A stretch of DNA of 64,000 nt from assembly GCA_936941155.1 (NCBI GenBank), contig CAKZJE010000033.1:124001-188000 (forward strand), read 5' to 3'. Of this stretch, positions 22,344-62,890 are shown piece after piece; positions within the stretch are counted from its first letter, which is position 1, and every line of letters begins with the position of its first letter. This stretch comes from an uncultured Methylomonas sp. GTDB taxonomy: Bacteria; Pseudomonadota; Gammaproteobacteria; Methylococcales; Methylomonadaceae. Below the pieces are notes generated by a model. It was given only the letters and a program-made list of their open reading frames with translations. It was not told the DNA's origin and did not search any database. The translations under genes were made by a program, and so were the position numbers.

Positions 22344-22470
22344 TCCCAACGCGGCATTAATCCCTCATTATCTGAACACGATTTACAGGATTTTAAGATT
22401 AACACGATTAATCCTGTCCATCATTTAATCTGTGTCATCGTGTTCACACTTTCCCAACGCGGCATGAGTC
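22344..22470. repeat. Direct repeat of a TPR-protein tail flanking a small insert
   Basis: The 15-base sequence TTCCCAACGCGGCAT occurs twice, at about 22345-22359 and 22451-22465, about 106 bases apart. On the minus strand both encode MPRWE. Between them is a sequence with inverted GATTTACAGGATTTT-type and ATCCTGTC parts. It looks like an insertion that duplicated the 3' end of the TPR gene, whose original tail would have been GLMPRWEKVKVQVQGV. Confidence 0.6.
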
Positions 22471-22795
22471 CCCATTGCCCGATTTCTTCAATGCGATTTT
22501 TGGCTTTTTGCAAATAATAGTTTGCATCTTTGGAGTCCAAAGTCGCGACTTTGGACTCCGAGCTAAGGTAGATTTGCGCGGCGAATAAGTCCAATTCTGC
22601 ATCGCGCAGGTGATAGCCGGTTTCAGAGATGAGTTGTTTGGCTTCTTGGTAGTGGTTTAAAGCGGTGTCAAAGTCAGCGGTGGTAAGGCTGTAACGTCCG
22701 TGAATAATCAAGTAATCCACTGCATACAGTTTCATGCCACAGCGTTCGATGATTTCCCACGCGCTGTTTAAATCGGCTGGGGCTGGGGCGGTTCT
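22421..22795 (-). pseudogene. C-terminal TPR remnant of a STAND-type NTPase gene
   Basis: A frame without its own plausible start encodes LNSAWEIIERCGMKLYAVDY and then helical TPR-like sequence (YSLTTADFDTALNHYQEAKQ) ending GLMPRWESVNTMTQIK. This is the type of C-terminal tail seen in large NTPase-TPR proteins. The matching N-terminal half ends abruptly at 23814 on the same strand. The two pieces are separated by about 1 kb carrying xre and three small genes. The remnant overlaps the last codons of xre in another frame. A 28-base perfect palindrome (22532-22559) is embedded in it. The pairing of the two halves is inference. Confidence 0.6.
22532..22559. repeat. 28-base perfect palindrome inside the TPR remnant
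   Basis: GGAGTCCAAAGTCG is followed by its exact reverse complement. It is read in frame in the TPR remnant, contributing ESKVATLDSKD between two helices. Confidence 0.9.
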
Positions 22796-23169
22796 CTTTT
22801 CAACAAGGCAATGATTTCTCTTAAGTTTTCAATTTCCCTGTCTTTCATGGCAAGTTCTTTTTTTTGTAACTCATTAATCAGCAACTGTTCTTTCAATTCA
22901 GCATTTGATGAACCAAGATAGACATTGTAATGCTTACCTTGTTTATTAAAGTTGATATTCAGAGTTCCTTTATCACTTGAATCAATTAAATCGGATAATG
23001 GCATTTCGAGAATTTCAGCAATTTTTTGTAGCTTTGATAATTTAGGGTCATTGTCGCCTCGTTCAATATCACCGTAAGCAGTTGGTGATATGCCAAGTTT
23101 TTCAGCAATTTGTTCCTGAGTTAATCCCTTTGTTTCTCGAATTAACCTAATTTTTTCATTTACCGACAT
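22768..23169 (-). CDS. XRE-family transcriptional regulator with coiled-coil tail
   Basis: This 133-residue protein has an N-terminal HTH_XRE domain (residues 5-60: IRLIRETKGLTQEQIAEKLG, SPTAYGDIERGDNDPKLSKL) and a C-terminal helical segment rich in Glu, Lys and Leu (about 85-125) that probably forms a coiled coil. It is divergent from the zinc-knuckle operon with a 95-base gap, a layout typical of a local repressor controlling its own promoter and the neighbouring genes. The last residues (PPQPQPI) come from sequence belonging to the interrupted TPR gene in another frame, marking one edge of the inserted segment. Confidence 0.85.
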   Translation of the reverse strand: MSVNEKIRLIRETKGLTQEQIAEKLGISPTAYGDIERGDNDPKLSKLQKIAEILEMPLSDLIDSSDKGTLNINFNKQGKHYNVYLGSSNAELKEQLLINELQKKELAMKDREIENLREIIALLKREPPQPQPI

Positions 23170-23264
23170 AATCTCGCCTCTACCGATGGAATATCTGTTA
23201 GGGCTTATGGTATCAAATTTGGGGAGGTTTATAATGGGCAGTTTTGAAATTGGAGGAAAAAATT

Positions 23265-23444
23265 ATGTCATGTAGTCACTGTGGTGCTGGTAATCACGAT
23301 TTAAGAAATTGTCCAAATATTAATCGCTGTTCGGTTTGTAATGGAACTGGACATAATGCTCAGACTTGCCCAGAAGCAAGACGTTGTAGTATTTGTAATG
23401 GCAGAGACCATGATGCAAGAAACTGTCCTATGAAGGAAAAATAA
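23265..23444 (+). CDS. Small protein with three CCHC zinc knuckles
   Basis: This 59-residue protein consists almost entirely of three retroviral-type zinc knuckles, CX2CX4HX4C: CSHCGAGNHDLRNC, CSVCNGTGHNAQTC and CSICNGRDHDARNC. The start at ATG 23265 was chosen because GGAGG lies 8 bases upstream; an in-frame ATG 21 bases earlier lacks this. Such knuckles bind single-stranded nucleic acid, mainly in eukaryotic and retroviral proteins, and tandem arrays are unusual in bacteria. It leads a three-gene operon (2-base gap to the next gene) divergent from xre. A role in RNA or ssDNA binding is inference from the motif. Confidence 0.8.
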   Translation: MSCSHCGAGNHDLRNCPNINRCSVCNGTGHNAQTCPEARRCSICNGRDHDARNCPMKEK

Positions 23445-23446
23445 AA

Positions 23447-23611
23447 ATGCCAATAGTAATATTTTTCGTCGCATTTGTTGTTATTTTGGTAGTGAACCAA
23501 ATGTTTTATGGATTTTGTTTTGAATCGCGTTGTTTATCTGCTGCATTTCCGAAGGTTTTAATACTTGCATCCTTCGTAACGTATTTTTTAACTAAAAGTG
23601 ATTTAAAATGA
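23447..23611 (+). CDS. Tiny hydrophobic membrane protein
   Basis: This 54-residue frame begins at ATG 23447, three bases after the zinc-knuckle stop, and its stop overlaps the next start (ATGA). It has an N-terminal membrane segment (VIFFVAFVVILVV) and a second hydrophobic stretch near the C-terminus (VLILASFVTYFL). Two cysteines lie between them. No family is recognised. The tight spacing on both sides supports it as a real gene in the operon. Confidence 0.55.
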   Translation: MPIVIFFVAFVVILVVNQMFYGFCFESRCLSAAFPKVLILASFVTYFLTKSDLK

Positions 23612-23769
23612 AAAAATTGATTATTTTTACGATAACTTTGTTGTTATATGGATGTAATAGTTGTTACGATACTGAAGAAGAGGCATGGGATGCTTGTAAT
23701 AGCAAGTATAATGGCAAGTGCCGCTACTTGGGAAAATCATATAAAGTTTGTCGCAATCCTAACGAGTGA
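23608..23769 (+). CDS. Small cysteine-rich lipoprotein
   Basis: This 53-residue frame overlaps the previous gene by four bases. It has a lipoprotein signal (MKKLIIFTITLLLYGC) with the lipobox cysteine at residue 16. A short mature part follows with four more cysteines (NSCYDTEEEAWDACN, KCRYLGKSYKVCRN) that could form two disulfides in the periplasm. No family is recognised. It ends 45 bases before the truncated NTPase reading frame on the opposite strand. Confidence 0.55.
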   Translation: MKKLIIFTITLLLYGCNSCYDTEEEAWDACNSKYNGKCRYLGKSYKVCRNPNE

Positions 23770-23813
23770 AAATAACAAAATCGCACACGACTCGAAAAAT
23801 CAACGGCGGTTTT

Positions 23814-24875
23814 TTATTGCGCATTCATCGGACGGTCAAACAAACCCAACAACTGCAAAAAACAGCGTGAGGCGGCATCTTGCAAACTATCGTAATAATC
23901 CAACACCCGCAGCGCATGACGACTGTCTTTTTCGGCATCACTATCGCCGTGCGCCGAAGTCAACGGCGGTAACTCGTTGGCATAACGGCAATCGCCTTGA
24001 TAATGTTCGCTTAACAAATGCCCGAATAACACCAAACTCAAGGCATGACCGTTTAAGTCTTCGCTAATCGCCTGCCGTTCTGCCGCCTTGCCCGTTACGC
24101 CTAACGCTTGCAACAACTTCGCGCCGTCCTGATGCGGCAAAGTTTTCAAATCCAATGACAAAAAATGCTCTGCCTGCCACTTTTTCAATTCCACCAACGG
24201 CTGACGCGATGAAAACAACACAAAACTTTTTCCCGCCGTTTGCCGAAAACAGGCGATAAACTCTTTCAACGCGCTGTCTTGCAATTCGCCATTCATAGAT
24301 TGCAGATTTTCAGCATATTGCAACGGTTCTAAACCATCGAGTATCAACAAACACGGCTGTTGTTGCAAACACCGCGCTAACAGCCGTGCTTTTTCAATCT
24401 CATCTTTGGGGATTTCGTTAATGCCTAAAAACGGCAACACCGCACTGAAAAACGGCTGCGAGTTGGTAAAGGTATTGTGCGAACCTTGCGAATAAAACGA
24501 CCAGCCAAATACATATTTAATGGCTGGAGTGCAGGCTTTGCCTGCATTTGCAAGCGGAGCTTGCACTCCTGTGTAATTGGTTTTCTCTAGCTCTGTTAGC
24601 CATTCATCAGTTAAAGCGGATTTCCCAATGCCACCTGCGGCGACAATAATCGCTAGGCGTTTGTTGGGATTAGTAAAAGCTTCCGTAAGTTGAGCGAGTT
24701 CGGTTTTGCGACCGATTAAAGCGGTGGTGGGTTTCGGGAGGTGGTATAAATCAACTTTGAGAGGTTCAGACGGTTGAATTGGTGGATTGTTGATAATGAT
24801 GTCTCTACCTGCAATATTGCCGCCTGTTACATTCCCTGCGACATAATTATTCGTATTTATTGTTTTGTCGTTCAT
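23814..24875 (-). pseudogene. STAND-type NTPase, truncated N-terminal half
   Basis: This is the N-terminal part of a signal-transduction NTPase of the kind linked to TPR arrays. The start was placed at ATG 24873-24875 (MNDKTINTNNYVAG), giving 353 residues. The N-terminus has the glycine/asparagine repeat NVTGGNIAGRDIIIN. Next come IGRKTELAQLTEAF, the Walker A AAGGIGKSALT, the family motif VFGWSFYSQGS, Walker B CLLILDGLE, and an arginine sensor SSRQPL. It stops at FDRPMNAQ, where relatives continue for several hundred residues with winged-helix and TPR parts. A palindromic insertion (24536-24569) lies between Walker A and FGWSFYSQG. It is probably inactive, or a shortened ATPase. Confidence 0.7.
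24536..24569. repeat. Imperfect palindrome inside the STAND NTPase frame
   Basis: GGAGTGCA ... TGCACTCC encloses a GC-rich centre with GGCTTTGCC and GCAAGC parts. It is read through in frame as part of GVQAPLANAGKACTP in the NTPase. Related sequence (GCAAGCAAAGCTTGCACTCC) lies at about 31583-31602. Confidence 0.75.
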
Positions 24876-24948
24876 AAAGTAGCCGTTACTTAAATTCCAA
24901 ACCTTAATAATTCTAACACGATAAGACATGGCGACCGGATTTGCTGCA

Positions 24949-45848: not shown

Positions 45849-46224
45849 GGGGGCGACCTGGCTTCGACGTGGGTAGCGAAACCTCGAGTGCATGTCAAGC
45901 ACAGTACAGCTTGTAAAACCTACTGAAAAAAAGTATTCGCAAATGACGAAAACTACTCAATGGCTTTAGCTGCTTAATACCAGCACCATTCCTCTGACTA
46001 TCTGTGCTTATGCGGGTAGGTTCGCAAGAACATTCAGGGGTCATCTCACATAAGATCGCACTAAGGCTTAGTTCGGAGCTAAACGTGCTAAATCCAATCG
46101 AAATCGTTGGTGATTTTCTTGGCTCGGCGGGTAGTCATCAACTAAATTAAAAGCACGAGATAAACATGTAGACCTTGTGGCGGAGTACTTGCGGACGCGG
46201 GTTCAATTCCCGCCGCCTCCACCA
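45849..46224 (+). ncRNA. ssrA: Transfer-messenger RNA (tmRNA)
   Basis: tmRNA rescues stalled ribosomes and adds a degradation tag recognised by SspB-ClpXP. The 5' end GGGGGCGACCTGGCTTCGAC and 3' end CGCCTCCACCA form the tRNA-like acceptor, with T-arm GGGTTCAATTCCC. The tag frame at 45939-45977 starts with resume codon GCA and encodes ANDENYSMALAA, then TAA. The length is 376 bases. The 3' end is followed at once by phage genes, so it is the likely attachment site of the prophage. Confidence 0.96.
46201..46224 (+). other. Probable prophage attachment site at the ssrA 3' end
   Basis: The ssrA 3' end is a common phage integration target. Phage structural genes begin about 80 bases beyond it. 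A duplicate of the final 20-40 bases of ssrA should be at the far end of the prophage, outside the window. The site is therefore inferred from context only. Confidence 0.5.
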
Positions 46225-46283: not shown

Positions 46284-46305
46284 CAATGTAAAAATTAATT
46301 TTAAA

Positions 46306-47016
46306 TTAAAGCGAAGTTGGAAGCGGGAAAGTTGGCATACCAGCACCTAATGCTTGTCCGATTATTACTCTGAACTCATCAAAGCTCCAAAAGTAATCAG
46401 GCACACCGTTAAAGGATATAAAAAACCCTTCTGATAAATCTACAGTAGCCTCCAGTGGAGAAAAAACAGATAAGTTCCCATTAAGATAGGCTCTGATATG
46501 TGTCCCATCAAAAGCTATACGGATAAAATGAAAATCCCCCACAGATATGTTTTGATTAAACGAACCTGCTAACCCAGCTATAAATTTGAATGTCCCGGCT
46601 CTACCTATAGATAACGCAGCATACTTATTATCACCATATAAATTTGATGTAACACTAGCCAAATAAATATCAAAACTACCACTTCCACTTACATTTTCTG
46701 CTAAGAAGTAACCTTCTAATGTGAATGGAGTATTTATTGGAATACCTGTGAACGTATTACTTTTTAATGAATACCCAGATGGAATCTTTAAAGTTACTAA
46801 CTTAGAGCCTACAGGTGCTGGCACTGAGTAGTAGTTAGCAGAAACAGTATCGGTAAATAACATTCCTCTAGCACCTTGGAGGCTATATATTGCCGGAGGT
46901 GTAGCTGAATCTACTACAGTATCATCTTCTCCATGCAGTAGTGATATTACTTCCCCAGCACTGGCTGCTGCTGTATGCCGTGCGCTTCCTACCAGTCCAA
47001 AGCTGCCGATTGTCAT
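46306..47016 (-). CDS. Phage tail fibre/appendage protein with LamG-like domain
   Basis: This 236-residue protein is the last gene of the phage tail block. The start at ATG 47014-47016 overlaps the previous stop (ATGA) and has GGAG ten bases upstream. The region from about residue 75 to the end has a concanavalin/LamG-like jelly-roll pattern (FTLEGYFLAENVSGSGSFDI, FHFIRIAFDGTHIRAYLNG, FWSFDEFRVIIGQA), as in phage and bacterial carbohydrate-binding appendages. It probably contacts the host surface. It lies about 80 bases from the tmRNA 3' end. Confidence 0.7.
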   Translation of the reverse strand: MTIGSFGLVGSARHTAAASAGEVISLLHGEDDTVVDSATPPAIYSLQGARGMLFTDTVSANYYSVPAPVGSKLVTLKIPSGYSLKSNTFTGIPINTPFTLEGYFLAENVSGSGSFDIYLASVTSNLYGDNKYAALSIGRAGTFKFIAGLAGSFNQNISVGDFHFIRIAFDGTHIRAYLNGNLSVFSPLEATVDLSEGFFISFNGVPDYFWSFDEFRVIIGQALGAGMPTFPLPTSL

Positions 47017-47813
47017 GTTGTTAAATCTCCAATCACCCACCAGAGGTCAGGGGTAACATCATCTTGCACTAAACTAACTGCGCCATATTGCGCTTGTACT
47101 TTTAGCCCGTGTGGAGCTTGCAACGTAACCCCCGCGCCAGCTGTCATTGTTGTTTGCCCCGCGCCGCCCTGTTTAAAGTCAATTCGACAGCCAAGAGGAA
47201 AAGCCACAGAAGAGTTTGGCGGTATCGTAAACGTATTTGCAGATGACGATGTAATCATCACAATCACATTATTGTTTGCTGCGTTTGTTACATCAGTCAA
47301 AACAGCCGTATAGCTGGCTGTTTGTCGATTGTATGTATGTAAAAGCGTTTTAGGTGCGTACAGCGTATCAAAATACGTTTTCAAAAACGTTTTCAAATCC
47401 GCAAAAGATACTTTTTTACTAAACCATGTTGCTGCACTATCTCCAATCAATATCACATCGGCATCAACGGGTGTTGTTTTTCCGGTCAATCCGTTGATAA
47501 AAGCAGCGGATGACGTAAGATTGTCTTGTTTGCTACCTAATTCGCTTGCAACATAATCAACAACGCCTTTCACATGCCAAAACTTAGCCGTGCTAGTCAA
47601 AAAATCAACGATATTTCCAGTTTTATTCGCAGTATCTTCTTTCGCATTTAAATCCCCACTAAACAGCGTTTTCAATTGCGTCACTGTGATTGCTACTGTT
47701 TTACGCAATGACGTACTGATTTTCAGCGACACGGGGATTAACGCATCATCTGTAATAAAAGCCGCGTCATCGGTTTCAACAATTTTCGGCAATGTTTCAA
47801 TATTTTCAGCCAT
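47013..47813 (-). CDS. Phage tail fibre-like protein
   Basis: This 266-residue protein has the modular look of tail-fibre proteins: repetitive beta-rich sequence, SKQDNLTSSAAFINGL and TWFSKKVSFADLKTFLKTYF segments, and a C-terminal part (GCRIDFKQGGAGQTTMTAGA) similar to fibre modules. It lies between the small 62-residue protein and the LamG-like protein, with a 5-base gap to the former. The exact receptor role is unknown. Confidence 0.65.
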   Translation of the reverse strand: MAENIETLPKIVETDDAAFITDDALIPVSLKISTSLRKTVAITVTQLKTLFSGDLNAKEDTANKTGNIVDFLTSTAKFWHVKGVVDYVASELGSKQDNLTSSAAFINGLTGKTTPVDADVILIGDSAATWFSKKVSFADLKTFLKTYFDTLYAPKTLLHTYNRQTASYTAVLTDVTNAANNNVIVMITSSSANTFTIPPNSSVAFPLGCRIDFKQGGAGQTTMTAGAGVTLQAPHGLKVQAQYGAVSLVQDDVTPDLWWVIGDLTT

Positions 47814-47818
47814 TTTTT

Positions 47819-48007
47819 TTACTCAAAATAAATTTCACTATCGCAAAACTCAAGACTTGAGCCAGCGCATTCGTATTCGTTTGTCAAAGCGTTTTGGATC
47901 GCATTCACATCACGCTGCAAAGCAGCAACCTGAGTTTCAATAGCCGCTTGTTCAGACTCATAAACTTTCCATTTTTGCAGCCGGCGGTCGTATGTTTTCG
48001 TAGTCAC
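47819..48007 (-). CDS. Small phage protein with helical segment
   Basis: This 62-residue protein overlaps the previous tail gene by four bases. It is mostly helical (ESEQAAIETQVAALQRDVNA) with an acidic end. No family is recognised. Its position among tail-fibre genes suggests a fibre chaperone or linker, but this is inference. Confidence 0.5.
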   Translation of the reverse strand: MTTKTYDRRLQKWKVYESEQAAIETQVAALQRDVNAIQNALTNEYECAGSSLEFCDSEIYFE

Positions 48008-48840
48008 GTTGCAACCTCTAGCAATTTCAACACTGTGTTATATCCGCGATAAAACGCTTGGTTCAGCGGGTTCAGCTCTACAAAATTAGCCATAAAACAT
48101 TGCGCATAAACCTCGGGGCTTTGTGCTAAACCTTGTGGCACGCTTGATAAAGTTGGGCGACCCGTGTGCGAATAAACAATTTCTCCCGTCACGCCTAACC
48201 GCCGCTGTGCATCAAAAATGCTATTAAAAATCTCACTTTCAGGCAGATACTTCAGCGTTAAATCAACGCTTCTTAACTTTTGCTGTTGATACGCATAGCG
48301 AATGCCACGCGCGGTGGTTTTGACTTCTGACAGATCTCGGTAGCTTATTGGCTGGTCGCCATAATCAACCCCGCCGCTCGGCTCATAACATTCACTAATA
48401 AATAACCTTCCGATTTGCACATAGCTCGAATTAGCTGGAGTAAAAATCACATCAACTTTATCAATTGAGGTATTTTGCGGAAGGTAATAAGCAAAATCGC
48501 GGCGTAAAGTTGCAATCATCTCTGACTGAGCAACGTATCCAGACACTTTTGGATAAACAACCATTACGTCAGAATCATCTACAAGCAAATCATCTTTATA
48601 GCACTTGATTTGCACAGTGGAGAGACGCGCCAAATTATGATTTACGATAAAAATACAGCCCACGCTAATCGCAGCTGCAAACGTCGCTGTGATGGTAAAC
48701 GGGTCATTAGTTGTAGTCCGTGCAACTTTTGGCAGTAAATAGCTTTTCAAATTCGCCAACGGCAATGTGCTTACAAACGTAGCATCACTGGTTAAAGTCG
48801 CATTCTCAATTTGATTGTGCCACGCTAATAAAACGCTCAT
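48004..48840 (-). CDS. Phage tail protein
   Basis: This is a 278-residue protein of the tail-tip region. It has beta-rich sequence with FTITATFAAAISVGCIFIVN, DKVDVIFTPANSSYVQIGRL and a conserved-looking end (QAFYRGYNTVLKLLEVA). It starts where the 625-residue tail protein stops, sharing a base. It resembles uncharacterised tail proteins located after the tape measure in siphovirus-like prophages. No specific role is assigned. Confidence 0.55.
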   Translation of the reverse strand: MSVLLAWHNQIENATLTSDATFVSTLPLANLKSYLLPKVARTTTNDPFTITATFAAAISVGCIFIVNHNLARLSTVQIKCYKDDLLVDDSDVMVVYPKVSGYVAQSEMIATLRRDFAYYLPQNTSIDKVDVIFTPANSSYVQIGRLFISECYEPSGGVDYGDQPISYRDLSEVKTTARGIRYAYQQQKLRSVDLTLKYLPESEIFNSIFDAQRRLGVTGEIVYSHTGRPTLSSVPQGLAQSPEVYAQCFMANFVELNPLNQAFYRGYNTVLKLLEVAT

Positions 48841-50717
48841 TATCCAAATGCCTTTAAAGTGATGATTTTAGATTTCATATCAATGGTATAACCGATAATC
48901 ACAAAATTTCTGCCCGCGCTGTAACCTAAGCGCGGCGTGATGATTTTCACAGTGTCAGCAAGTAAAAACGCGGGTAATTCTGTAAAAATCACATCAATCG
49001 TTACGATGTCTCGGCGTACTTTTGTTACATTAAACAGCCGCGTTTTAAGCGCGTTAATATACAAAAGAGAGCGTAATAAACTTTCAACTTCCAGCGTTAA
49101 AGCCATCGGATGACGTGTTGCAGTTGCAGCCTCAGTTGTTGTGATTTCGCGGTACTGTTTACGCAATCTTTCCCGCCATGCCTCTGATACGCCGCCGGCT
49201 AAAGTTGTTTGCACCGTTTCAATCCTATCGTAAAGCGCGTGGAAAGCTTTAATAGGTAAGCCATTACTACCCAAGCCCGTAGCAACCCTTTCAATCCGAT
49301 CAATCTGCCAATCTTCAATCACAAAATCAGCCGTTAATTTGGGAGTAAAAAGCAAATTCGCATACAGCACACCGTTTAAGATGTGATAAAAACCTCCGAC
49401 GCTTCGGATAATTTTGTCTAGCAGATCGCTAATTGTGGTTTGCGAATCAACATACAATCCGAGTGTGCCAGCATTGTTTAACTCAGTGACTGAGCTACTA
49501 TCAATTGTTAAACCCGCTGCAACGCCAATATCGTTAAAAACATCACCCGCTTTGCGCACCGCACCGTTATTTATTGATACCGCGTCACAGGTAATCGTGC
49601 CAACCGGTGCAGTTGTCAGCCTAAAATAGCCTTGGTAGCCGCCCCACAATGCAGGGCTTGTGCCAATCACATAAACAAATTCATCACCGTTCAGCGCAAT
49701 GATTAAGCCAGCTGATAATGTAATTACTCCGCCAGACAAAGCAGTTGCAACCGTATAAATCGCAGTTTGATTGCTAAACATCAACAACTCACCGGCGGCA
49801 ATGTCACCAACGCCATTATATAAATTAATAGCTTTGATGTTTGCAGCATGAGCCCCACTGACTTGATAATCAGCGGCTTGCAAATCAGTTAGATCGGCGT
49901 AAAAATCAATGATTTCAATCGCAGTATTTTTAGGCACGGCAACACTTAAGCCGCTGCTTAAAACAATACTGTCACCCCAAACCGTTTCAACACTATATAA
50001 AGCAGAATGGTTAGCAAATTTGAGTTGCAAATCAGGCTGTAGCGCACCGATTCCATTTTTCATTCCAATCGTGGCATCACCTATGCTATGCGCCGTGCTA
50101 GTTTGATAATTTACTAACTTAACGCCGTCATCATAAACCGCTGTAACAATGCAATCGTCTCGACTTGAAACTTGATAAATCAGTAGTGAACTATTAACCA
50201 GTGTTGCTGCAATATTGCGACAATCTCCGAAAACCTGCGTTTTAACGCTGTCTTTAATATCATCCGCAGTGCCTTCTAAACCTAAAAAACCGCTGTTTGT
50301 GCCTGCATAAATCGACATTGGAAAGTTGTCAGTTAAAACCTCATGCGGTGCTTTCAATGACAGCGTGATTCGCCCGCCGCTTTCAGCCATTTTTGTGACA
50401 ACACCGCGATAGTATTCGGTCACGGTCTCATTTTCATCAACCCACGACAAAACCGCCGCGCGACCGTCAATTGCATAACTGGCTAAATAATCTAAACCAC
50501 CGTCTTTGTTTTCGAGTTCAATATCTCCAACACTGGCACTGTCAAAAATCCCCAGCAAGCCGCCGTCATTTGGTGAAACGGTTACTAAAGCAGGCGTGAT
50601 AATCCGTGAGTCATAATAGTTTTGGTCATTATCAACATAACTGCCACTGGTAAAATATAACGTTTCGGCAGTGTCGTTAGCATCCAAAGTATCAAGCGTT
50701 AAAATCCACTGGCTCAT
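48840..50717 (-). CDS. Large phage tail-tip protein with duplicated internal module
   Basis: This 625-residue protein lies directly after the tape measure, where distal-tail and hub proteins are encoded. Residues 1-130 resemble DUF2163-like tail-tip proteins (YRGVVTKMAESGGRITLSLK). The middle has two similar 70-residue modules, one around VKLVNYQTSTAHSIGDATIG and one around DYQVSGAHAANIKAINLYNG. Each has a FANHSALY or FSNQTAIY part and a later VLSSGL or TLSAGL strand. The C-terminal 190 residues are hub-like. The stop overlaps the next start by one base. Confidence 0.6.
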   Translation of the reverse strand: MSQWILTLDTLDANDTAETLYFTSGSYVDNDQNYYDSRIITPALVTVSPNDGGLLGIFDSASVGDIELENKDGGLDYLASYAIDGRAAVLSWVDENETVTEYYRGVVTKMAESGGRITLSLKAPHEVLTDNFPMSIYAGTNSGFLGLEGTADDIKDSVKTQVFGDCRNIAATLVNSSLLIYQVSSRDDCIVTAVYDDGVKLVNYQTSTAHSIGDATIGMKNGIGALQPDLQLKFANHSALYSVETVWGDSIVLSSGLSVAVPKNTAIEIIDFYADLTDLQAADYQVSGAHAANIKAINLYNGVGDIAAGELLMFSNQTAIYTVATALSGGVITLSAGLIIALNGDEFVYVIGTSPALWGGYQGYFRLTTAPVGTITCDAVSINNGAVRKAGDVFNDIGVAAGLTIDSSSVTELNNAGTLGLYVDSQTTISDLLDKIIRSVGGFYHILNGVLYANLLFTPKLTADFVIEDWQIDRIERVATGLGSNGLPIKAFHALYDRIETVQTTLAGGVSEAWRERLRKQYREITTTEAATATRHPMALTLEVESLLRSLLYINALKTRLFNVTKVRRDIVTIDVIFTELPAFLLADTVKIITPRLGYSAGRNFVIIGYTIDMKSKIITLKAFG

Positions 50718-53700
50718 GCTTTTGCCCTCTGTCTTCTATCCATATTTTCTAAGCTTTCGGCTTGCGACTCACCTTGTTTCAGCAATTCTTTGTAGCCAAA
50801 CCGATCAACTTCCAAACCTTGTTTTAACAGCTCATTTTGGTTTTTTAATTCTTCAATCACTTCCGCTTGTTTCTCTACCAACTTTTTCAACTCAGCAACC
50901 ACATCACTGTTATCTCCATTGCTATTTGAGTTAAAAGACTGTGGACTGGGTGGAAAACTTAAAGTAACCGGAATAGTGCGACCATCGGGCAATGGAACTG
51001 CTGCCTCCGGCCCTGCTTCGCCAAAAATTGCAGCGGTGTTTGAAATCCCGCCTAATGCGTACTTTTTAAGCGGATCATACGTTGCTGGGATAAAGGGTAT
51101 TGCAGACTGTATTGCAGACTGTATTGCCGCTGCATTTTGCGCTGTCATTATCGTTTTGTATTGTGCGTTTAAGCTTGCTCCCAATGACGTTGCGTCAGAA
51201 TCCGCAGTAAACGGACGATTAAAAGCAATTCCATAACGTGCAATATGCGATTGATTAAACGTTGCTAATAAATTTTCCCAAACCGTATCTTTAGTCCCGC
51301 CCGCTTGCCAAGATGTTTGTGTGGCAATTTTTAGCGGATTTGCAGCTTGTGCAGCGGCTTTAATGCTGACTTCATAATCTGCTAAGCGTTTACTTTCGCT
51401 ATCTGCAAACGCTTGTTGATTGATTTTTTCAGCCGCTGCTTTTGCCGCTGCGTTATTTGCAATCGCTTGTGCGGTGACAATATCTTGTGCAGCTTTTAAC
51501 TCCTTTTGCACATCTGTCAATGCAGTAATAGCATCTTTTACTGATAAAACGCTGTCATTTAACGTCACCAATTTGCCGACTTGATCAGTCAGCGCGTTAA
51601 GTTGCAATTGCGCAATATTTTGTTTAACCGTTGCTTTCGTAATTCCGTTATTTAGCGCGGCGGTGGCAGTCGCAAAATCACGCACATAGCCCATTGAGCT
51701 GGCATTGTAAGCGCGTGATGCTTGTAAAAAAGTATCCGTTGCCCCTTGCAGCTTGCCCAAGCCTTCCTGTTTTTGTGCATCCGTTCCGGTGTTGATTAGC
51801 GTGTTGACTGCATCAAACTGGCTTTTCGCCTCTTGATATTTTTGCAGCGGCGTTTTGGTTGAAATATCACTCAGCACCAAGCTATCAAGATATTCTTTTA
51901 AGCTTTTGGCAAAACCACCAAAATCATCCACCGATTGTTTTAATGCGGCTGATTCGGTTTGGTATGCTTTGCGCAAATTATCCTCAGCTGTCGTGACGTT
52001 GGCTTGTAGATTATCAATTGCCTTAGTCGCTAAATCAGTCGCAGTGTAAAAAGCATCAGCAAGCGATAAAACCTGCCCTTGGAACTTTTGCCCCGCCGCG
52101 CTGCTCACGTCAATACTTTCAACCAACGCCCTGAATTTTGCCGTGCTTGTTGGCATAGCCAAACCAAGTTTTAAAAATTGGTTTTGCATGTTGGTATTGG
52201 AAGCTACGAGTTTTTCAGCATCAGAAAAGTATTTATCAGCATAAGCTGTGACCGCGCTATTCAAATCTGCCACGCTACCCGCACCGCTAATCGTACTTGA
52301 ACTAATTGAATTGCCATTCAAGCCATTTAAATTCATCGTGTCACGAATCGCAGACAGTTGTTTGTACATGTCAATCAAATCCGAACCCGATCCGTTCAGT
52401 GTGTTGATAACATCTGCAATGCCTTTTGCCGCCGTTTCTTGTGCCACGATGCTTTGCCGTGCGATTTCTGCAAAAACATCACCTTGCTTATTAACCACGT
52501 CAGTGTAAGCAATCGCTTTGATGTGCAATCTATCAAGCCCTACCGTTGCTTGTTCAACTGCACTGGCGACACGCACTAAGGTTTCAAAATAACCCTCGCC
52601 TGCTTTCTGAAAATCAATCAAACCAGCAAACGCATATTTAGCCATGTCATCAGCAACACGACCGAACACCGCTTCTAATTCAGTTTGCAGCGCATCACCT
52701 TTTAAGCCTTTCAGCGACACATCGCCAATCGAAACCGCAAAGTTGCTTAAAACTTGTGAAAAATCAGTACCTGATTTGTCCAGTGAACCCGCCGCTACGC
52801 TTACCGCTCCGACTAAGTTCATAATCACTTTTCCAAACTGGCTTTTAGTTTCATCGTCCACAGCTGAAACTTGTCGTTCTACCCATGTTTTGGTTTTGCT
52901 AAAAAAACCACCTGTTTTTGTCACTTGCACATCAACGTATTGCGCTGCGTCAACAAAGCCTTTTGCGATAATATCACCAACCATTTGCGTTGGAATGATT
53001 AAGCCAGAATCTGCAAGTGTGCGCGTGGTTTTTCTGCCAAACAAACCACTTGAAATCTGAGATGTTTCAACAAATTTCGGATTGTTGATAAAAGCACGGC
53101 TAACTTGATTACCTAAACCACCGATGTTTGACTCAATATTGCGCAAAGAATTCGCCATTGCCGATGTTAAGGGTAAGGTGACATCAGAATTTTGTTTTAA
53201 GATTTCAAGACTATTTGCAATAGATTTTGATTTAGCCGTTGCATCACCAAGCACAGACCCCGTGCCTTGCGTTTTTTGCCGATCTTCAGCTAAATTGATA
53301 GTTGTTGCCGCCGCCGCTGCACCACCGCCACCAAGACCAAAGCCAACAGAAGCCATCAGCGCAATCATCATGGCAACACGAGCAAAAGCTGTGTAGGAGT
53401 CGCCACTTGATCCTTCATTCGCCACTGCCTCAGCAGCTTTTGCCGTGCCTTTGGCTGTTGACGCTGCAACCTCCGGCGCAACGCTGGCAACGGTTGCTGC
53501 TGTTTTTGCCGTTTCACCAGTCACCCACATACCTACAGTTCGTGCCATGTCTGCAATTGCAGTGATGGTAGACTGGCTGGACAAATACATTTCATAAGCG
53601 CGAAAAGCTTTAGTCGCAATACCCATGAGTTGATAGCCTGCTGTACCTTCTTTGAAAAAGCCTTGTGCGGCTTCTGTCATGCTGGCATAAGCATCAATTT

Positions 53701-56700
53701 GAGCAATGGCTTGTTCTTGTGCGGCTTTTGTTTGTGCAATTGCGATTTGTTCAGCATTCGCGCCATTTTCTTTAGTCACAGCGGCGCGTTGCACTTCAAT
53801 ATCATTCGACACCTTGCCATAATTCGCCATTGCAACTGCCATATCACCGATGCTTTTTCCTACTTTTCCAAAGCTGTTTTGTAAGCCAGTCGCTAGTTTT
53901 TGTGCTTTTGCTAAACCGTTAGTGAGTTCCTTGTCTTTAAAGCTGATTTTGTATTCAAGCGTTTTTTTAGCCGCTTTTTTGCTCTCGATGTTGTCAGTTA
54001 AATCATTGAGTTTATTTTGCTCAGTGCTGTTTTTAGAGATTTTTGCGTTTTGGTAGTATTGCCATTGCTGTGTAGTCATTTGAAGTTGCAATTGTTCATC
54101 TTGCAACGCTTTCATGCGGTCGTTAAATTCCTTATCGAGCTCGGCTTGTTGTACTTTGTCGAGCAGGTCTAAAGTTGATTTATCACCGCCTAGCGTTGCT
54201 GCTTTGCGCAATGGATTATTTTCATACTGCAAAGCCAATTGCGCCTCACGCGCTTGTTGTGCCGTGCCGGTCAGTTCAATGTAATGATTTTTTAAATCCT
54301 GCACCGATTTTAAATAATCTTGCTGTTGTTTGGCATATTCTGCTCCCGCTGCAATGGCGGCTTTGTTGCTTTCAGATCGTACTTTTGCCAGATCAGATTC
54401 TGCACTGGTTTGCTGTTCAGTTTGCCCGCTGATTTGACCGTAATATTGTTTGAATTTTGCCATGTAAGCGGCGGTGTGCTCACCGTAAGCATTCACAGCT
54501 TTGTCGATACTACCGTAGTGATTGACTAAGCCTTTAAAGTAATCCTCACCGAATTTTTTAAGACCCGCTTCATTTTCTTGCACAAATTTCAGCAGGCGTT
54601 GATATGACATCAAAGCCGTGATGTTTTGGTCAATAGCAGGTTGAAAGGGTTTTATGCCATATCCTGGATCACGCAATGTGCTGGGCAACACTTGCATTTG
54701 TCCTAGGGCGTGGCTAGTTTGGTTAACTTGTGCCAATTTCCCGCCAGCGGATTCGATTTTTAGAATAGCTTGATAGGCTTTGTCTAAGTCGCTGAGATTT
54801 TGAGAGGATGCTGCACTTTCCAGTTTGCTGGTTTGCGTCAGTGAGCTGGTTTTGGCTTGGGTAATTTGATTGATTAAATTCAGCTCGGTTTGGTAGTGTT
54901 GCGACGCGCTGATTTTTTGTTGGTTGAATAGCGCGTCATTGGCGGCTTTTTGTTCTTCAAATTGCGTGATTTTGGCATCAGTCAGTTTTTTAATGCCGTC
55001 CAATTGTTCAGAGAGAGCTTTTTTAGCGGCTTCTTTATCCACGCCAGCCGCTGAAAGTTTTTCTTCAATGCCTGCCTGCATAGCAGCTGCTTGTGCAGTG
55101 GCATTGGCTGCTAGTTCTGTCGCTTCCTTTTTAGCTTCGTCGCGTAATTTTTGTCTTAGCAGTAATCCTTGCTCAGTCAAAGTATTTTGAGCAGCAATAA
55201 CTGCATTTTGCTCTTTATATGTTTGAGCAATTAATGCGTTTGCAGCTTCATTATTTCTAGCGATAGCTTTATCACGCTGTTCATTGCGGTTTTCATTGAA
55301 ATTGCTAAATGGATTGTAGTTAATGAACGATTTTTTAAGCTTATCCCAGTTTGCACTAGCTTTTTCCAGCGCGTTATCAAAGCCGCGTACTACCTCAATA
55401 ATGAACACTCTAAAATCAGTTCTTAACGCCAGAAAAGGAGACTGAATAGAAAACGCCTTAGCAAGTGACGGCGAGATCGTGTTTGCAGTTTGCGCAATAT
55501 CATTCGCCAGAAGTTTAAAATCCAACTGAATTTTAATCATTTCCCGCTCAAACTGACCGCTTTGCAAAGATTCAATGGCGTTTGTAGCAAAGCGACTGAT
55601 TGATGATGCTGCTTTGCCAACATCATCCGCAATCGCGCCGCTGTAAAGTTTAATCCCTGTCCATAATTGTGAAAACGCCCTGCCCATTGTTACTGGCATC
55701 GTGTCAAACTGGCGTTGCATGTCACCAAAGCTTTTCAACATACCATACGCAAACATCTCACTGGTGAGCTGTTGGTTATGAGACATCTCAATAAGTTCGC
55801 CCTTGGTTTTGCCCAAAGCTTTACTTAAGTTATCCATCACCACTGAGCCGTTTTCCATCAAACTCATAAATTCATCACCGGAAAACATACCTTTGCTAAG
55901 CATTTGGCTAGTTTGCAGCAATACAGAATTGACCTCTGAGGTTTGCGCTCCGGCAATAATCAGTGATTTACCCAGCGTATCAACTACAGCAACCGTACTT
56001 TTGGCATTCAAGCCCATATCACGCAGTGGTTTTGCGGCTTTGGTGAAAATATTCACGTTAGCTTCAAGGCTTGATCCTGTTTTAACGGATGATTGCACTA
56101 ATTGCCGCTGTGCGTATTCCAGTTCTTGAGTTGATGTCACAACTAATTTCATGCGGCTTTTTAAGATTTCCATGCTGTCAGCGGATTTGACAACGTGATA
56201 AGCCATGAATGGCAACGTAGAAAGCAGCAAAGATGACATTGACCGCAATGCCCCAACTAATGGCGCGGTAAGAGAGAGTAAGCCAGAAAATAACGGCTGT
56301 AACTTAGCCGCTGCAAAGCGCATTAAATCAAATGCGCCGGTTGCAATTCGCGTGGCCGTTCCAAGCCCCAAAAATGCCAGAGATAATATTTTTGTAGTGG
56401 TGTTGGCTTCGATAAAGCTGGTTTTCAGCAGCGATACTGTTGATTTTAGCCCGCCAATTACGCCCCCAACATAACCACTTTGAAATGTTAAGGTTGCCAA
56501 TCCTTTAGAGATAAATTCAGCTGCCGTGCCAGTGCCAAAAATAGTTTTTGTCAGTTGATTAAAAACAAAGTTTGCAGCCGTGACTTTCCCTGACGTATCA
56601 AGCAATACACCTGCTAAACCCGCAAATTTTTCAGAAATAACCCCCAGCGATACACCCAGCTTAGCCATTGAACCCAAACTATATAAAACCTGACTAATGC

Positions 56701-57439
56701 GCTGTAAGCCACTGCTAAATTGCAACGCCATCACGTCAGCCTTACCCATTGCCATGACAAACTGACTACTTAACTGAGTAAACCGCGCTAACGCAGGAAC
56801 GCCTTTAGTGATTGAATATTCAAGCGCGTGAAATGAACCTGTTAAAACAGTGCTAGCGGCGTTTGCAGCTCCCATTGTGACTACATAAGCCTGCACAGGC
56901 AGTGGCAACATCGTAAACACTTGATACGCCGCTTTAGCAGATTTCACCATTGCATCTAATTGACCAACGGTTTCACTGATATTGCCACCTAAGCCAATCG
57001 TGCTGTTTGCCAGTGTTGTAGTTGGCGTAATCATTCCGCGGATGGCATTCACTGCTAAATTTGCGGCTTTTTGATAACCTTCGATTTCACCGGCTAACTT
57101 GTTAAAATTATTGTTTACACCAAATAGTTTAAGCACATCACCTGTGACTTTTAGCGTGGATGTAGCTTGCTTAGCGGTATTGTTAGCGGTTTTCCATGCT
57201 TCGGATGCTTTGTAAAGTTCGTTATTAACTGATCCGAGTGATGCAGCAACTGCGTTAGCAGTTGATTGACTGCTAACGCCGAGTTGTTTTATTGAAGTAG
57301 TCGTTTTGCCTAGGCTAACAGAGGAGGCTTGTGCAGATCTTCCCAAATCTTGTGTTTCTTTGGAAAAAGCCGCGATTTGCTGGTTTGCATTGCCAGAATC
57401 AACTTTGATGTTTAAATTCAGTTGTAAATTTCCAGCCAT
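50714..57439 (-). CDS. Tail tape measure protein with lytic transglycosylase-like domain
   Basis: This 2241-residue protein sets the tail length, which in tape-measure phages scales with protein length, so the tail should be long. Parts in order are helical N-terminal sequence; the conserved tape-measure N-domain near residues 420-550 (LRDMGLNAKSTVAVVDTLGK, LSKGMFSGDEFMSLMENGS); coiled coils; and a lysozyme/SLT-like domain near 880-1010 (ILKIESAGGKLAQVNQT, ALGQMQVLPSTL, YFKGLVNHYG). A hydrophobic segment (MMIALMASVGFGLGGGG) and further coiled coils follow. The end carries AIFGEAGPEAAVPL, common in tape measures. It follows the tail chaperones. Confidence 0.92.
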   Translation of the reverse strand: MAGNLQLNLNIKVDSGNANQQIAAFSKETQDLGRSAQASSVSLGKTTTSIKQLGVSSQSTANAVAASLGSVNNELYKASEAWKTANNTAKQATSTLKVTGDVLKLFGVNNNFNKLAGEIEGYQKAANLAVNAIRGMITPTTTLANSTIGLGGNISETVGQLDAMVKSAKAAYQVFTMLPLPVQAYVVTMGAANAASTVLTGSFHALEYSITKGVPALARFTQLSSQFVMAMGKADVMALQFSSGLQRISQVLYSLGSMAKLGVSLGVISEKFAGLAGVLLDTSGKVTAANFVFNQLTKTIFGTGTAAEFISKGLATLTFQSGYVGGVIGGLKSTVSLLKTSFIEANTTTKILSLAFLGLGTATRIATGAFDLMRFAAAKLQPLFSGLLSLTAPLVGALRSMSSLLLSTLPFMAYHVVKSADSMEILKSRMKLVVTSTQELEYAQRQLVQSSVKTGSSLEANVNIFTKAAKPLRDMGLNAKSTVAVVDTLGKSLIIAGAQTSEVNSVLLQTSQMLSKGMFSGDEFMSLMENGSVVMDNLSKALGKTKGELIEMSHNQQLTSEMFAYGMLKSFGDMQRQFDTMPVTMGRAFSQLWTGIKLYSGAIADDVGKAASSISRFATNAIESLQSGQFEREMIKIQLDFKLLANDIAQTANTISPSLAKAFSIQSPFLALRTDFRVFIIEVVRGFDNALEKASANWDKLKKSFINYNPFSNFNENRNEQRDKAIARNNEAANALIAQTYKEQNAVIAAQNTLTEQGLLLRQKLRDEAKKEATELAANATAQAAAMQAGIEEKLSAAGVDKEAAKKALSEQLDGIKKLTDAKITQFEEQKAANDALFNQQKISASQHYQTELNLINQITQAKTSSLTQTSKLESAASSQNLSDLDKAYQAILKIESAGGKLAQVNQTSHALGQMQVLPSTLRDPGYGIKPFQPAIDQNITALMSYQRLLKFVQENEAGLKKFGEDYFKGLVNHYGSIDKAVNAYGEHTAAYMAKFKQYYGQISGQTEQQTSAESDLAKVRSESNKAAIAAGAEYAKQQQDYLKSVQDLKNHYIELTGTAQQAREAQLALQYENNPLRKAATLGGDKSTLDLLDKVQQAELDKEFNDRMKALQDEQLQLQMTTQQWQYYQNAKISKNSTEQNKLNDLTDNIESKKAAKKTLEYKISFKDKELTNGLAKAQKLATGLQNSFGKVGKSIGDMAVAMANYGKVSNDIEVQRAAVTKENGANAEQIAIAQTKAAQEQAIAQIDAYASMTEAAQGFFKEGTAGYQLMGIATKAFRAYEMYLSSQSTITAIADMARTVGMWVTGETAKTAATVASVAPEVAASTAKGTAKAAEAVANEGSSGDSYTAFARVAMMIALMASVGFGLGGGGAAAAATTINLAEDRQKTQGTGSVLGDATAKSKSIANSLEILKQNSDVTLPLTSAMANSLRNIESNIGGLGNQVSRAFINNPKFVETSQISSGLFGRKTTRTLADSGLIIPTQMVGDIIAKGFVDAAQYVDVQVTKTGGFFSKTKTWVERQVSAVDDETKSQFGKVIMNLVGAVSVAAGSLDKSGTDFSQVLSNFAVSIGDVSLKGLKGDALQTELEAVFGRVADDMAKYAFAGLIDFQKAGEGYFETLVRVASAVEQATVGLDRLHIKAIAYTDVVNKQGDVFAEIARQSIVAQETAAKGIADVINTLNGSGSDLIDMYKQLSAIRDTMNLNGLNGNSISSSTISGAGSVADLNSAVTAYADKYFSDAEKLVASNTNMQNQFLKLGLAMPTSTAKFRALVESIDVSSAAGQKFQGQVLSLADAFYTATDLATKAIDNLQANVTTAEDNLRKAYQTESAALKQSVDDFGGFAKSLKEYLDSLVLSDISTKTPLQKYQEAKSQFDAVNTLINTGTDAQKQEGLGKLQGATDTFLQASRAYNASSMGYVRDFATATAALNNGITKATVKQNIAQLQLNALTDQVGKLVTLNDSVLSVKDAITALTDVQKELKAAQDIVTAQAIANNAAAKAAAEKINQQAFADSESKRLADYEVSIKAAAQAANPLKIATQTSWQAGGTKDTVWENLLATFNQSHIARYGIAFNRPFTADSDATSLGASLNAQYKTIMTAQNAAAIQSAIQSAIPFIPATYDPLKKYALGGISNTAAIFGEAGPEAAVPLPDGRTIPVTLSFPPSPQSFNSNSNGDNSDVVAELKKLVEKQAEVIEELKNQNELLKQGLEVDRFGYKELLKQGESQAESLENMDRRQRAKA

Positions 57440-57462
57440 GATTTTTTAATCCTATTTTCGCT

Positions 57463-57490
57463 GTAGAGACGCAAAATATTGCGTCTCTAC
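57463..57490. repeat. 28-base GTAGAGACGC palindrome between tail chaperone and tape measure
   Basis: This copy of GTAGAGACGCAAAA / TATTGCGTCTCTAC fills most of the 53-base gap between the frameshift extension and the tape measure gene. It is identical to the chromosomal copy at 20979-21006. Confidence 0.93.
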
Positions 57491-57492
57491 GG

Positions 57493-57858
57493 TTATTTTT
57501 TTTCTGCCGATTTTTTCTTGGCTTTCTCAGCCCACGCCTTTAACGCGCCCGTTTCCAACGCCTGAATTTCCTCCAGCAATAGCAACTGCTGTTTGCGCTT
57601 GCGCTCATGCAATGCAATCACCGCTAACACTGCTGAATAATCTAAACCAGCCACGCCGCCAAAATGGTACGTCCACTGGGTTTGGCAAAAAAAGAAAAGG
57701 CTCAGAGCCTGCTGGCTATCATAAAACAGCACACACTCTGAGCCTTTGGGGGGTTGTCTATTGGTAGGCGGGTTAATTCCTAAAGCCTCAAAACAGCTTT
57801 TTTCACTGACAGGCTTTGCCGGTTCTGCACTTGCCCAGTGATAACCCGCCTCTGTTAG
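57493..57858 (-). CDS. Tail assembly chaperone extension (T part), reached by -1 frameshift
   Basis: This frame has no own convincing start (first possible is GTG 57730-57732). It is open from the -1 reading of the slippery site, with LTEAGYHWASAEP, CFEALGINPPTNRQPPKGSE, then YHFGGVAGLDYSAVLAVIAL and a Lys-rich end. The last block is like DUF1799 phage proteins. It joins the upstream chaperone via A_AAA_AAC at 57858-57864, giving a gpGT-type fusion of about 240 residues. The position just upstream of the tape measure fits a lambda G/GT pair. Confidence 0.75.
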   Translation of the reverse strand, partial: LTEAGYHWASAEPAKPVSEKSCFEALGINPPTNRQPPKGSECVLFYDSQQALSLFFFCQTQWTYHFGGVAGLDYSAVLAVIALHERKRKQQLLLLEEIQALETGALKAWAEKAKKKSAEKK

Positions 57859-58214
57859 TTTTTTAGCTTTTGCCGTTTATATTCGGCATTGGTCACGCCA
57901 CCTTGCACCGCCATAAATCCATCAATCACGGATTTATTCAACCAAGGTTGATTCATCATTTCTTGCTTAACATCATTATCAAAAGCCACAGGACTTCCTG
58001 ATTCATCCACAATATCCTGCACATCCACCAGATTTTCATAGGCAATATCGATAATCAACGAATCGTTATCTTTCAGCAAAGCCTGCCAGTCATCTTTTGG
58101 CAAAATTTTAAATTCAGCTTCAAATGAATGCGTTTTAGTTTTATCTTTGTCGAGTGGCTCAATCGCTGTAATTGAAATTACACGAGTTTCTTTTTTGCCA
58201 ATTTTTAAAGCCAT
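57855..58214 (-). CDS. Tail assembly chaperone (G part)
   Basis: This 119-residue protein lies between the tail tube and tape measure genes, the standard place of the short tail assembly chaperone. It has KIGKKETRVISITAIEPLD, the acidic DNDSLIIDIAYENLVDVQD and ends KRQKLKN*. The final codons are CTA AAA AAC TAA, a canonical slippery heptamer A_AAA_AAC directly before the stop. A fraction of ribosomes should shift to the -1 frame and make the longer form. Confidence 0.8.
   Translation of the reverse strand: MALKIGKKETRVISITAIEPLDKDKTKTHSFEAEFKILPKDDWQALLKDNDSLIIDIAYENLVDVQDIVDESGSPVAFDNDVKQEMMNQPWLNKSVIDGFMAVQGGVTNAEYKRQKLKN
57858..57864 (-). promoter_or_regulatory. Programmed -1 ribosomal frameshift site A_AAA_AAC
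   Basis: The heptamer A AAA AAC in the zero frame of the chaperone gene is followed at once by TAA. In the -1 frame translation continues CTA ACA GAG through 122 codons to 57493. Position, motif and neighbours match the conserved G/GT frameshift of long-tailed phages. Confidence 0.78.
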
Positions 58215-58234
58215 GTTTTTTTACCTTTATCAAA

Positions 58235-58262
58235 GTAGAGACGCAAAATATTGCGTCTCTAC
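58235..58262. repeat. 28-base GTAGAGACGC palindrome between tail tube and chaperone genes
   Basis: This is the second prophage copy of GTAGAGACGCAAAA / TATTGCGTCTCTAC. It lies in the 52-base gap after the tail tube stop, where it may modulate the ratio of tail tube to chaperone expression. Confidence 0.93.
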
Positions 58263-58266
58263 AGGG

Positions 58267-59886
58267 TTATTGCAGAATCAAAACAAATTCGTTATTGCCG
58301 CCATTAATCGCTGGTAACGTCATATCCATTGTTAGCATCGCAATACCGTCTTTATCACTGGATGATGGATTTGATAATTGCATCGAAGGCGAATAAACCC
58401 CCACTTGTTGACCTATAGGGCCGTGCATAAACAGCAATTTATTGATGTCAGCATTTTCAATCGCTGCATAAAAGTCATAATCGGTTTTCAATACTGCTTC
58501 AATCGCTACCTGCCCTTTTGCCTCACGCCCTGTAATAAGCACACGATCCGCATTTGGCATATTCCGATGGATGACTTTATTACCCAAATCAAACGTGATT
58601 TTTTCCATCACGCCTTCGTCAAAACTATGAATCACCAGCGTTTTAGTATTGCCATAATTCACAGGCAATGGATTAACCCATGCGGCTAAATCAATCGCTG
58701 GTAAATCGGCAACGTCATAATCTTCAATTAAGCCCGTCAAAACCACTTGTGCCATTGGGATTTGTCCGCTGGTGAAATCAAATGTTACCGTGCCTTTTGC
58801 ATAACTAAACTGATGCAGTGCACCATCTTGAAAATACCAAATCGTGTATGATTTTTGCGTATCGGTATTGCTGTTTGGGTAATACTCAACCGATTTACCG
58901 ATGATATAAGTCATCGTATCATTCGCTTCTTTAGTTAATTTAGGATAAACCACCGCTGTTTTTGTCGCACCGTCATAGTCTTGAATATGACGCATTTCTG
59001 CTAATTCATAAGTAGTGCTAGTTGTAGTTACAAATTTTAAATTGCTGGCTAACGTGGCAACTTTTGTAGTTCCGTCGTAACCAGTCACAAGTTTGGATTC
59101 GCTAATTACAAATGTTGATGTATTGCTTGGTATAGTCGCCAATTGCGAATCAAGCAAAGCACGTTTTGACGCAATTTCATACGATTTAATGCGTTTAATT
59201 TCAGCTTGATTTTCCCCTGTTTTGATTTCAATATCGCAGCCGGTTAAGTTTTTAATGCCGACTGTGCTAGCTGGTAAATAAATATAAGCTTTAGTTGAAT
59301 TGCTGCTCGCTGTGTCAACAATAGTCCCTGCAAAATGTTTTACTCTGCAAAAAAAGCCGTTAAAATAATTATCCGTTGGTCGTGCTTCTGATGATAATTT
59401 AATAATATTTTTGTTTGAACTGGCAGGATCTTGCGCTGTACCCCCAGAGACTTGCACATAAATAGCATGGCCTGCATAAGCATCATCTTGCGCTGATGAT
59501 TCTGCTGCCAACACAATTGAATTCAAATCACCATCTTGCGCTGTACCAGTGACTTCGCTGCTAGTCACAACAGATGATAAATTACATGCCTGCAATAGCA
59601 TGTCATATTGCGGCAAAGTGCCTGGAACAGAAATTCCTTGCGCATTCCCTCCAACTGCCAAAGCAAATTTCAAAGTAATCATGCCTTCATTTGCGGTAAT
59701 TATTTTTTTGTTACCACCAAAATATGGCTTAATAGTATTTCGTGTAATTTCAGTCGTTTTCATTTTATCGACTGTTAAATCTTCCAATTCAATTGCAATA
59801 GCATCAGCAAAGTTGGCAGGAACTCCGCTGGTTGTTTCCTCTGCAATTTTAATTGCTTGTTTGTTTGAAAATAACGGATTAGACAT
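58267..59886 (-). CDS. Major tail tube protein
   Basis: This 539-residue protein occupies the tail-tube position before the chaperones. The start MSNPLFSNKQAIKIAEETTS and the following DAIAIELEDLTVDKMKTTEI fit tube proteins of long-tailed phages. The C-terminal part (VLITGREAKGQVAIEAVLKT, MLTMDMTLPAINGGNNEFVL) resembles the tube core. A large middle insertion holds two short repeats, GYDGTTKVATLASNLKF and DYDGATKTAVVYPKLTK, which probably form a surface-exposed domain. The start overlaps the preceding small gene by 8 bases. Confidence 0.75.
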   Translation of the reverse strand: MSNPLFSNKQAIKIAEETTSGVPANFADAIAIELEDLTVDKMKTTEITRNTIKPYFGGNKKIITANEGMITLKFALAVGGNAQGISVPGTLPQYDMLLQACNLSSVVTSSEVTGTAQDGDLNSIVLAAESSAQDDAYAGHAIYVQVSGGTAQDPASSNKNIIKLSSEARPTDNYFNGFFCRVKHFAGTIVDTASSNSTKAYIYLPASTVGIKNLTGCDIEIKTGENQAEIKRIKSYEIASKRALLDSQLATIPSNTSTFVISESKLVTGYDGTTKVATLASNLKFVTTTSTTYELAEMRHIQDYDGATKTAVVYPKLTKEANDTMTYIIGKSVEYYPNSNTDTQKSYTIWYFQDGALHQFSYAKGTVTFDFTSGQIPMAQVVLTGLIEDYDVADLPAIDLAAWVNPLPVNYGNTKTLVIHSFDEGVMEKITFDLGNKVIHRNMPNADRVLITGREAKGQVAIEAVLKTDYDFYAAIENADINKLLFMHGPIGQQVGVYSPSMQLSNPSSSDKDGIAMLTMDMTLPAINGGNNEFVLILQ

Positions 59887-60058: not shown

Positions 60059-60068
60059 TTCAATTCCT

Positions 60069-61609: not shown

Positions 61610-61628
61610 AGCAAAATCGCTTAGTTAA

Positions 61629-62009: not shown

Positions 62010-62112
62010 AATATGTCTCTTGGTATTAAACAGCGTTAGATTGTGCTCACGCAGATTCGATATGAAAATCTATCACGATGACCACAAGTAACGCTGCCCG
62101 AGTGGGAGCTAT

Positions 62113-62889: not shown

Positions 62890-62890
62890 C

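Follow-up and report, generated by a model that had tools for sequence, protein, structure and literature searches.

The 64,000-nucleotide stretch of Methylomonas DNA analyzed here (the window) carries a compact divergent locus of four small genes. On the minus strand, positions 22768..23169 encode a 133-aa repressor of the XRE/Cro type (HTH_3 match, E 7e-17). The adjacent region (23170..23264), a putative divergent promoter/operator, can be aligned with its counterpart in XRE paralogues associated with other cargo, and contains the TATAAT -10 box of the cargo promoter (23230-23235) and a strong GGAGG Shine-Dalgarno sequence for the first cargo gene (23252-23256). The plus strand encodes: (i) KNK, a triple zinc-knuckle protein of 59 aa (23265..23444), (ii) TM54, a predicted inner-membrane protein of 54 aa (23447..23611), and (iii) Lipo53, a predicted lipoprotein of 53 aa (23608..23769) with a LLYGC lipobox and a small cysteine domain. 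KNK and TM54 are separated by two bases, the Shine-Dalgarno sequence of TM54 being located inside the 3′ end of KNK, and an ATGA overlap joins TM54 and Lipo53. The four ORFs, the 2-base spacing and the ATGA overlap are all as reported in a preliminary description of this DNA.

The locus interrupts another gene. An acquired segment of about 1,043 bp (22779..23821, junctions approximate) stands for about 1.18 kb of a gene encoding a STAND (AAA_16)-TPR protein, which subsists on the minus strand as a 5′ remnant truncated after ..LFDRPMNA (23814..24929) and a 3′ TPR remnant (22421..22784) that includes ADLNSAWEIIERCGMKLY. Close relatives of this gene are open frames of 850-993 aa that match through residue 369-370 of the 371-aa remnant of the window. 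In two relatives, DRPMN and DLNSA are separated by 393 and 397 residues, and this is the interval whose place is taken by the XRE cassette in the window. The last two residues of the XRE protein and its stop codon are supplied by the STAND remnant. Judging from these alignments, the cassette replaced the middle of the STAND-TPR gene. Neither terminal inverted repeats nor a target duplication could be convincingly recognized at the window cassette. A search with a strict attC consensus, which also missed the known attC sites of Lampropedia, found no pair in the 22-25 kb region of the window or in the other KNK loci. The STAND-TPR proteins of the window (23814-24929) and of three other loci (L030, L031 and L032) combine a near-identical NTPase core with differing N-terminal domains (TIR-like in L031, as judged by eye), which suggests effector swapping.

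Relatives of KNK (81-88% aa identity) were identified in six other loci, belonging to Lampropedia, two Pseudomonas, a Sulfurovum MAG, a Polaromonas MAG and one IMG/VR contig. Five of these loci come from a scan of 84,980 species and the sixth from IMG/VR; since the scan uses short exact peptide patterns, this number is a lower bound, but it agrees with the rarity initially attributed to the knuckle array. No copy besides that of the window was found in the class and phylum samples of its host, and none was found on plasmids or in a search of E. coli. A phage-derived origin had also been envisaged; it receives no support from the 50,697 phage records searched, which gave no match, and the IMG/VR contig is the sole locus from a viral collection. 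Three low-scoring matches in relatives were discarded as chance, two of them lying inside or antisense to other genes (L008 and L009) and the third being a 26-aa frame (L010). The third codon positions of the KNK loci differ from those of the window by 47-60%, with a dN of about 0.09-0.16. Synonymous sites are near saturation over the seven loci, and dS is saturated in nearly all pairs. Such diverged third positions combined with a low dN point to a long divergence under strong protein constraint. By this comparison, KNK is a real gene subject to strong purifying selection across the seven loci, and it spreads horizontally among distant hosts.

The KNK protein (MSCSHCGAGNHDLRNCPNINRCSVCNGTGHNAQTCPEARRCSICNGRDHDARNCPMKEK) contains three exact CX2CX4HX4C motifs, whose zinc ligands are invariant in all seven members of the family. 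When the window was trimer-shuffled 100 times, no frame with at least two knuckles arose, compared to one in the real sequence. The window protein scores below the cut-off of the Pfam zf-CCHC models (16.5 bits, with a cut-off of 20.8), although every family member matches such models weakly, the members other than that of the window with a best E of 3.4e-6. The best solved relative of the KNK profile is the RNA-surveillance protein AIR2 (E 3.3e-7), aligned across three successive knuckles. The structure model of KNK shows three knuckle-like units, and Foldseek returned weak matches only, to RNase D of T. brucei, Lin28 and nucleocapsid. All family members have a basic net charge and none of the seven contains any F, W or Y residue. 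In classical retroviral and LIN28 knuckles, it is precisely F, W or Y residues that stack on bases. Their absence from the KNK family argues against this stacking mode and makes binding of KNK to single-stranded nucleic acids a weaker assumption; protein binding or another RNA mode would be the remaining options.

TM54 and Lipo53 have one weak relative each, and these are encoded side by side in the same genome (G099), where an exported protein (L078) carrying two tandem copies of the Lipo53-related cysteine domain is followed by the TM54 relative. This proximity suggests that both are probably real genes. Viral scans with the two proteins gave no match, and no Ltp domain was detected in Lipo53. 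PADLOC gave no match for KNK or Lipo53, one weak match for TM54 (E 0.02) and generic HTH/regulator models only for XRE. The module is indeed compact and uncharacterized, as first described, no PADLOC, PHROG or NCBIfam model naming any part of its cargo. By contrast, the view of KNK, TM54 and Lipo53 as a conserved unit is not supported: the exact trio was found nowhere else, no homologues with the same gene order were found for it, and neither TM54 nor Lipo53 is known beside any other KNK gene.

The other KNK loci associate this protein with different partners. In four of the six (L001, L002, L004 and L005), KNK adjoins MGFW, an unnamed helical protein of about 83 aa with the N-terminus M(G/S)F(W/F), which is encoded upstream of KNK in three loci and downstream in Sulfurovum. 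Since L001 and L005 have a 647-bp block in common (89% identity), these four loci represent about three independent lineages. The AlphaFold model of MGFW (pLDDT 84) had no match in a Foldseek search of the PDB, and no MGFW gene was found in the genome of the window. In Polaromonas (L006), the gene upstream of KNK encodes ZRTM, a multi-zinc protein of 99 aa whose C-terminus is hydrophobic, and there is no pairing with MGFW. In L003, as in the window, KNK is accompanied by neither MGFW nor ZRTM. Viral scans with MGFW and ZRTM did not yield any match.

These partners are also carried by plasmids. MGFW was found on 12 of them, some of only 2.3 kb with rop as sole other annotated gene, and directly follows one of two zinc proteins, either ZR43, a zinc ribbon of 43 aa (MAPTIYRAKCLDCKHEW...), or a protein of 63 aa. 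ZR43 itself is present on 56 plasmids; in the plasmid records read, it is followed by a gene for MGFW or for ZRTM or, as is the case in Pantoea, by one that encodes an Ltp-type protein (PF07553, E 1.7e-31). ZRTM is present on 30 plasmids, downstream of the zinc ribbon in three loci (L033, L038 and L042) and, on a P. aeruginosa plasmid, behind another, different small zinc protein. The gene calls of the plasmid tables miss several of these tiny ORFs. All four pairings of KNK or ZR43 with MGFW or ZRTM are observed. In this mosaic, KNK and ZR43 thus behave as alternatives for the first part, and MGFW and ZRTM as alternatives for the second.

The XRE protein belongs to a multi-copy family, with 11 matches in the genome of the window (E<=1e-12, up to 80% identity); in the order sample, 26 further genomes also gave matches. 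The cargo of this family is very diverse, and its divergent promoter is conserved: the promoter region between XRE and cargo shows 56% identity compared to 38.5% for the start of the cargo. The motif TTGATTGTA occurs in this interval in 42 of 72 loci, compared to 14.5 in shuffles (maximum 23); its copy in the window is degenerate, with three mismatches. No shared palindromic operator was detected above shuffles in the XRE promoter regions. Control by the XRE protein, proposed from the outset, is well supported, the best evidence being that the promoter region is conserved across the family while the downstream genes differ; XRE thus probably controls the knuckle operon. Among the KNK loci, XRE lies next to KNK in the window only. 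MGFW-family genes are found under a divergent XRE promoter in four of 71 sampled loci (L087, L093, L101 and L103), all five MGFW matches among 2,847 ORFs are divergent from an XRE gene, and ZR43 is found under an XRE promoter in one of the 71 loci (L147), in a version that shares 87% identity with that of the plasmids. Through the XRE family, the window is thus linked to the mosaic without recourse to KNK. As a class, small zinc ORFs are not enriched beside XRE (2/65 compared to 3/281, p=0.24).

Other loci of the XRE family deserve mention. An XRE paralogue located about 29 kb from that of the window (L090, G000:C33:115500-121000; 39% identity) is divergent from a gene encoding a 70-aa cysteine-rich protein with the N-terminus MGFF. 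In L101 (862-2190), an XRE-driven operon comprises five small genes, encoding a 48-aa zinc finger, a 71-aa protein, a 74-aa MGFW-like protein, a 50-aa protein that recurs in L093 and L103, and MGFWDTLGEISIALHNVATFNPDYE, a motif that recurs in a 116-aa neighbor of KNK in L003. Genes resembling those of PIN-domain proteins and of small antitoxins were noticed by eye near the XRE paralogues of L080, L083 and L093.

The form found in Lampropedia hyalina is an integron gene cassette: KNK and MGFW are flanked by a pair of attC hairpins (z -4.7 and -5.5) beside a tyrosine integrase gene, and an HNH gene adjoins the cassette. Elsewhere, KNK is found beside a complete Lamassu system (LmuA, C and B; L003), PDC-S06 (E 0; L005), an OLD/AriA-like ATPase (7e-30; L001) and CcdB in a CcdAB neighborhood (2.4e-9; L004), and near a NACHT gene (L006). 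In a control made on 70 long proteins of one host genome, at most three reached E<=1e-25. With plasmids, an integron and islands as carriers of the mosaic, these neighbors accord with the mobile and defence-rich setting suggested by the preliminary description, and the case for a conflict-rich setting of KNK is modest (three of six loci, with a one-genome control). Islands collect unrelated genes. The 3′ end of a group II intron (Rfam 42 bits) lies between Lamassu and KNK in L003 (4454-4534), and similar DNA is found just downstream of KNK in L001. On its minus strand (46300-63997), the window also carries a set of prophage-like structural genes, including capsid- and tail-like ORFs and a gene for a 2241-aa tape-measure-like protein; they begin just past a tmRNA gene (45849-46224), a possible integration site.

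Overall, we propose, with a probability of about 45%, that the locus is an XRE-controlled and horizontally exchanged accessory cassette, probably devoted to conflict with mobile elements. The XRE repressor and the conserved divergent promoter would form a fixed control unit, and the genes under this promoter would be swappable, coming from a common repertoire of small proteins that includes KNK and other tiny zinc proteins, MGFW, ZRTM and membrane or exported proteins. The genetic side of this picture (horizontal spread, purifying selection on KNK, swapped partners, promoter conservation, the integron cassette of Lampropedia and the replacement in the STAND gene) is read from the sequences and very likely correct. 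XRE would repress the operon; stress or the entry of foreign DNA might release it, leading to the production of KNK and the envelope proteins. KNK, structured by zinc, could then serve as an adaptor binding RNA or protein, and the envelope proteins could act with it against, or for, a mobile element, by exclusion or defence. Such a role is favored by the genomic context and by the Ltp partner, and we consider an exclusion or defence function of the cassette to have somewhat less than an even chance. A stronger version appears doubtful: a modular conflict system in which an exchangeable tiny zinc adaptor or sensor is combined with an exchangeable small effector, either XRE-controlled or borne by promoterless cassettes, and crosses phyla via integrons, plasmids and islands.

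Several of the same features could be expected from an addiction or toxin-antitoxin module, in which the tiny zinc protein would neutralize or regulate a small toxic partner (MGFW, ZRTM or TM54) and thereby stabilize plasmids, integron arrays or islands: a pair of small neighboring genes whose partners can be exchanged, carriage by an integron cassette and by 2.3-kb plasmids with only rop as other annotated gene, the adjacent CcdAB, the XRE regulator and the hydrophobic or amphipathic nature of several small partners. However, the gene order varies (MGFW being first or second), KNK lacks MGFW and ZRTM in the window and in L003, the genome of the window is devoid of MGFW, and no known toxin or antitoxin family was matched, XRE matching generic HTH models only; this explanation is unlikely. 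It is also quite unlikely that KNK and the zinc ribbons are housekeeping-like RNA- or ribosome-associated regulators that tune expression or plasmid copy number outside any conflict. The best match of the KNK profile to AIR2, the basic charge of all members and the presence of zinc ribbons on Rop-bearing plasmids would fit such regulators, but not the very sparse distribution of KNK (5/84,980 species in the pattern-based scan and none in the class and phylum samples besides the window), its absence from the plasmids searched or the lack of F, W and Y in any member. Finally, the great diversity of XRE cargo and the lack of overall enrichment in small zinc ORFs could reflect island hitch-hikers, i.e. 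independently mobile accessory genes with unrelated functions that are incidentally driven by XRE paralogues; the occurrence of all four pairings and the restriction of MGFW matches to the immediate vicinity of XRE among 2,847 ORFs make this still less likely.

The exchanged accessory cassette that we favor unites unannotated tiny ORFs in a hitherto undescribed mosaic, with a fixed repressor and promoter and a swapped zinc protein and partner; the literature searches made found nothing on a XRE-KNK/MGFW/ZRTM module. Should the paired proteins interact, they would constitute a small-protein system of a new class; otherwise, the mosaic would still account for widely scattered hypothetical proteins and for triple CCHC arrays that cross bacterial phyla. 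The 2.3-kb plasmids, which carry almost nothing else, would provide a minimal system for the mosaic pair.

The components of this mosaic recall several known systems. KNK resembles the CCHC arrays of AIR1/2, CNBP/Gis2, LIN28 and retroviral nucleocapsid by its tandem CX2CX4HX4C motifs and short linkers, but it is a bacterial, stand-alone protein of 59 aa, devoid of aromatic residues and carried by mobile mini-operons. The gene interrupted in the window encodes an AAA_16-TPR protein akin to STAND/NACHT conflict NTPases, with N-terminal domains that vary among relatives; here, however, the STAND gene is the target of the insertion and lies outside the cassette. XRE-controlled prophage and toxin-antitoxin modules likewise combine a Cro/C1-type repressor with a divergent promoter, and XRE paralogues are often located in islands, whereas no match to a toxin, antitoxin or phage family was obtained with the window cargo. 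The Ltp prototype is described as a superinfection-exclusion lipoprotein (PMC3952083); an Ltp-domain protein is the partner of the zinc ribbon in Pantoea, and the window cargo likewise ends with a predicted exported protein, Lipo53, although without the Ltp domain. Finally, the KNK-MGFW pair of Lampropedia hyalina is organized like integron gene cassettes, being flanked by attC sites beside a tyrosine integrase.
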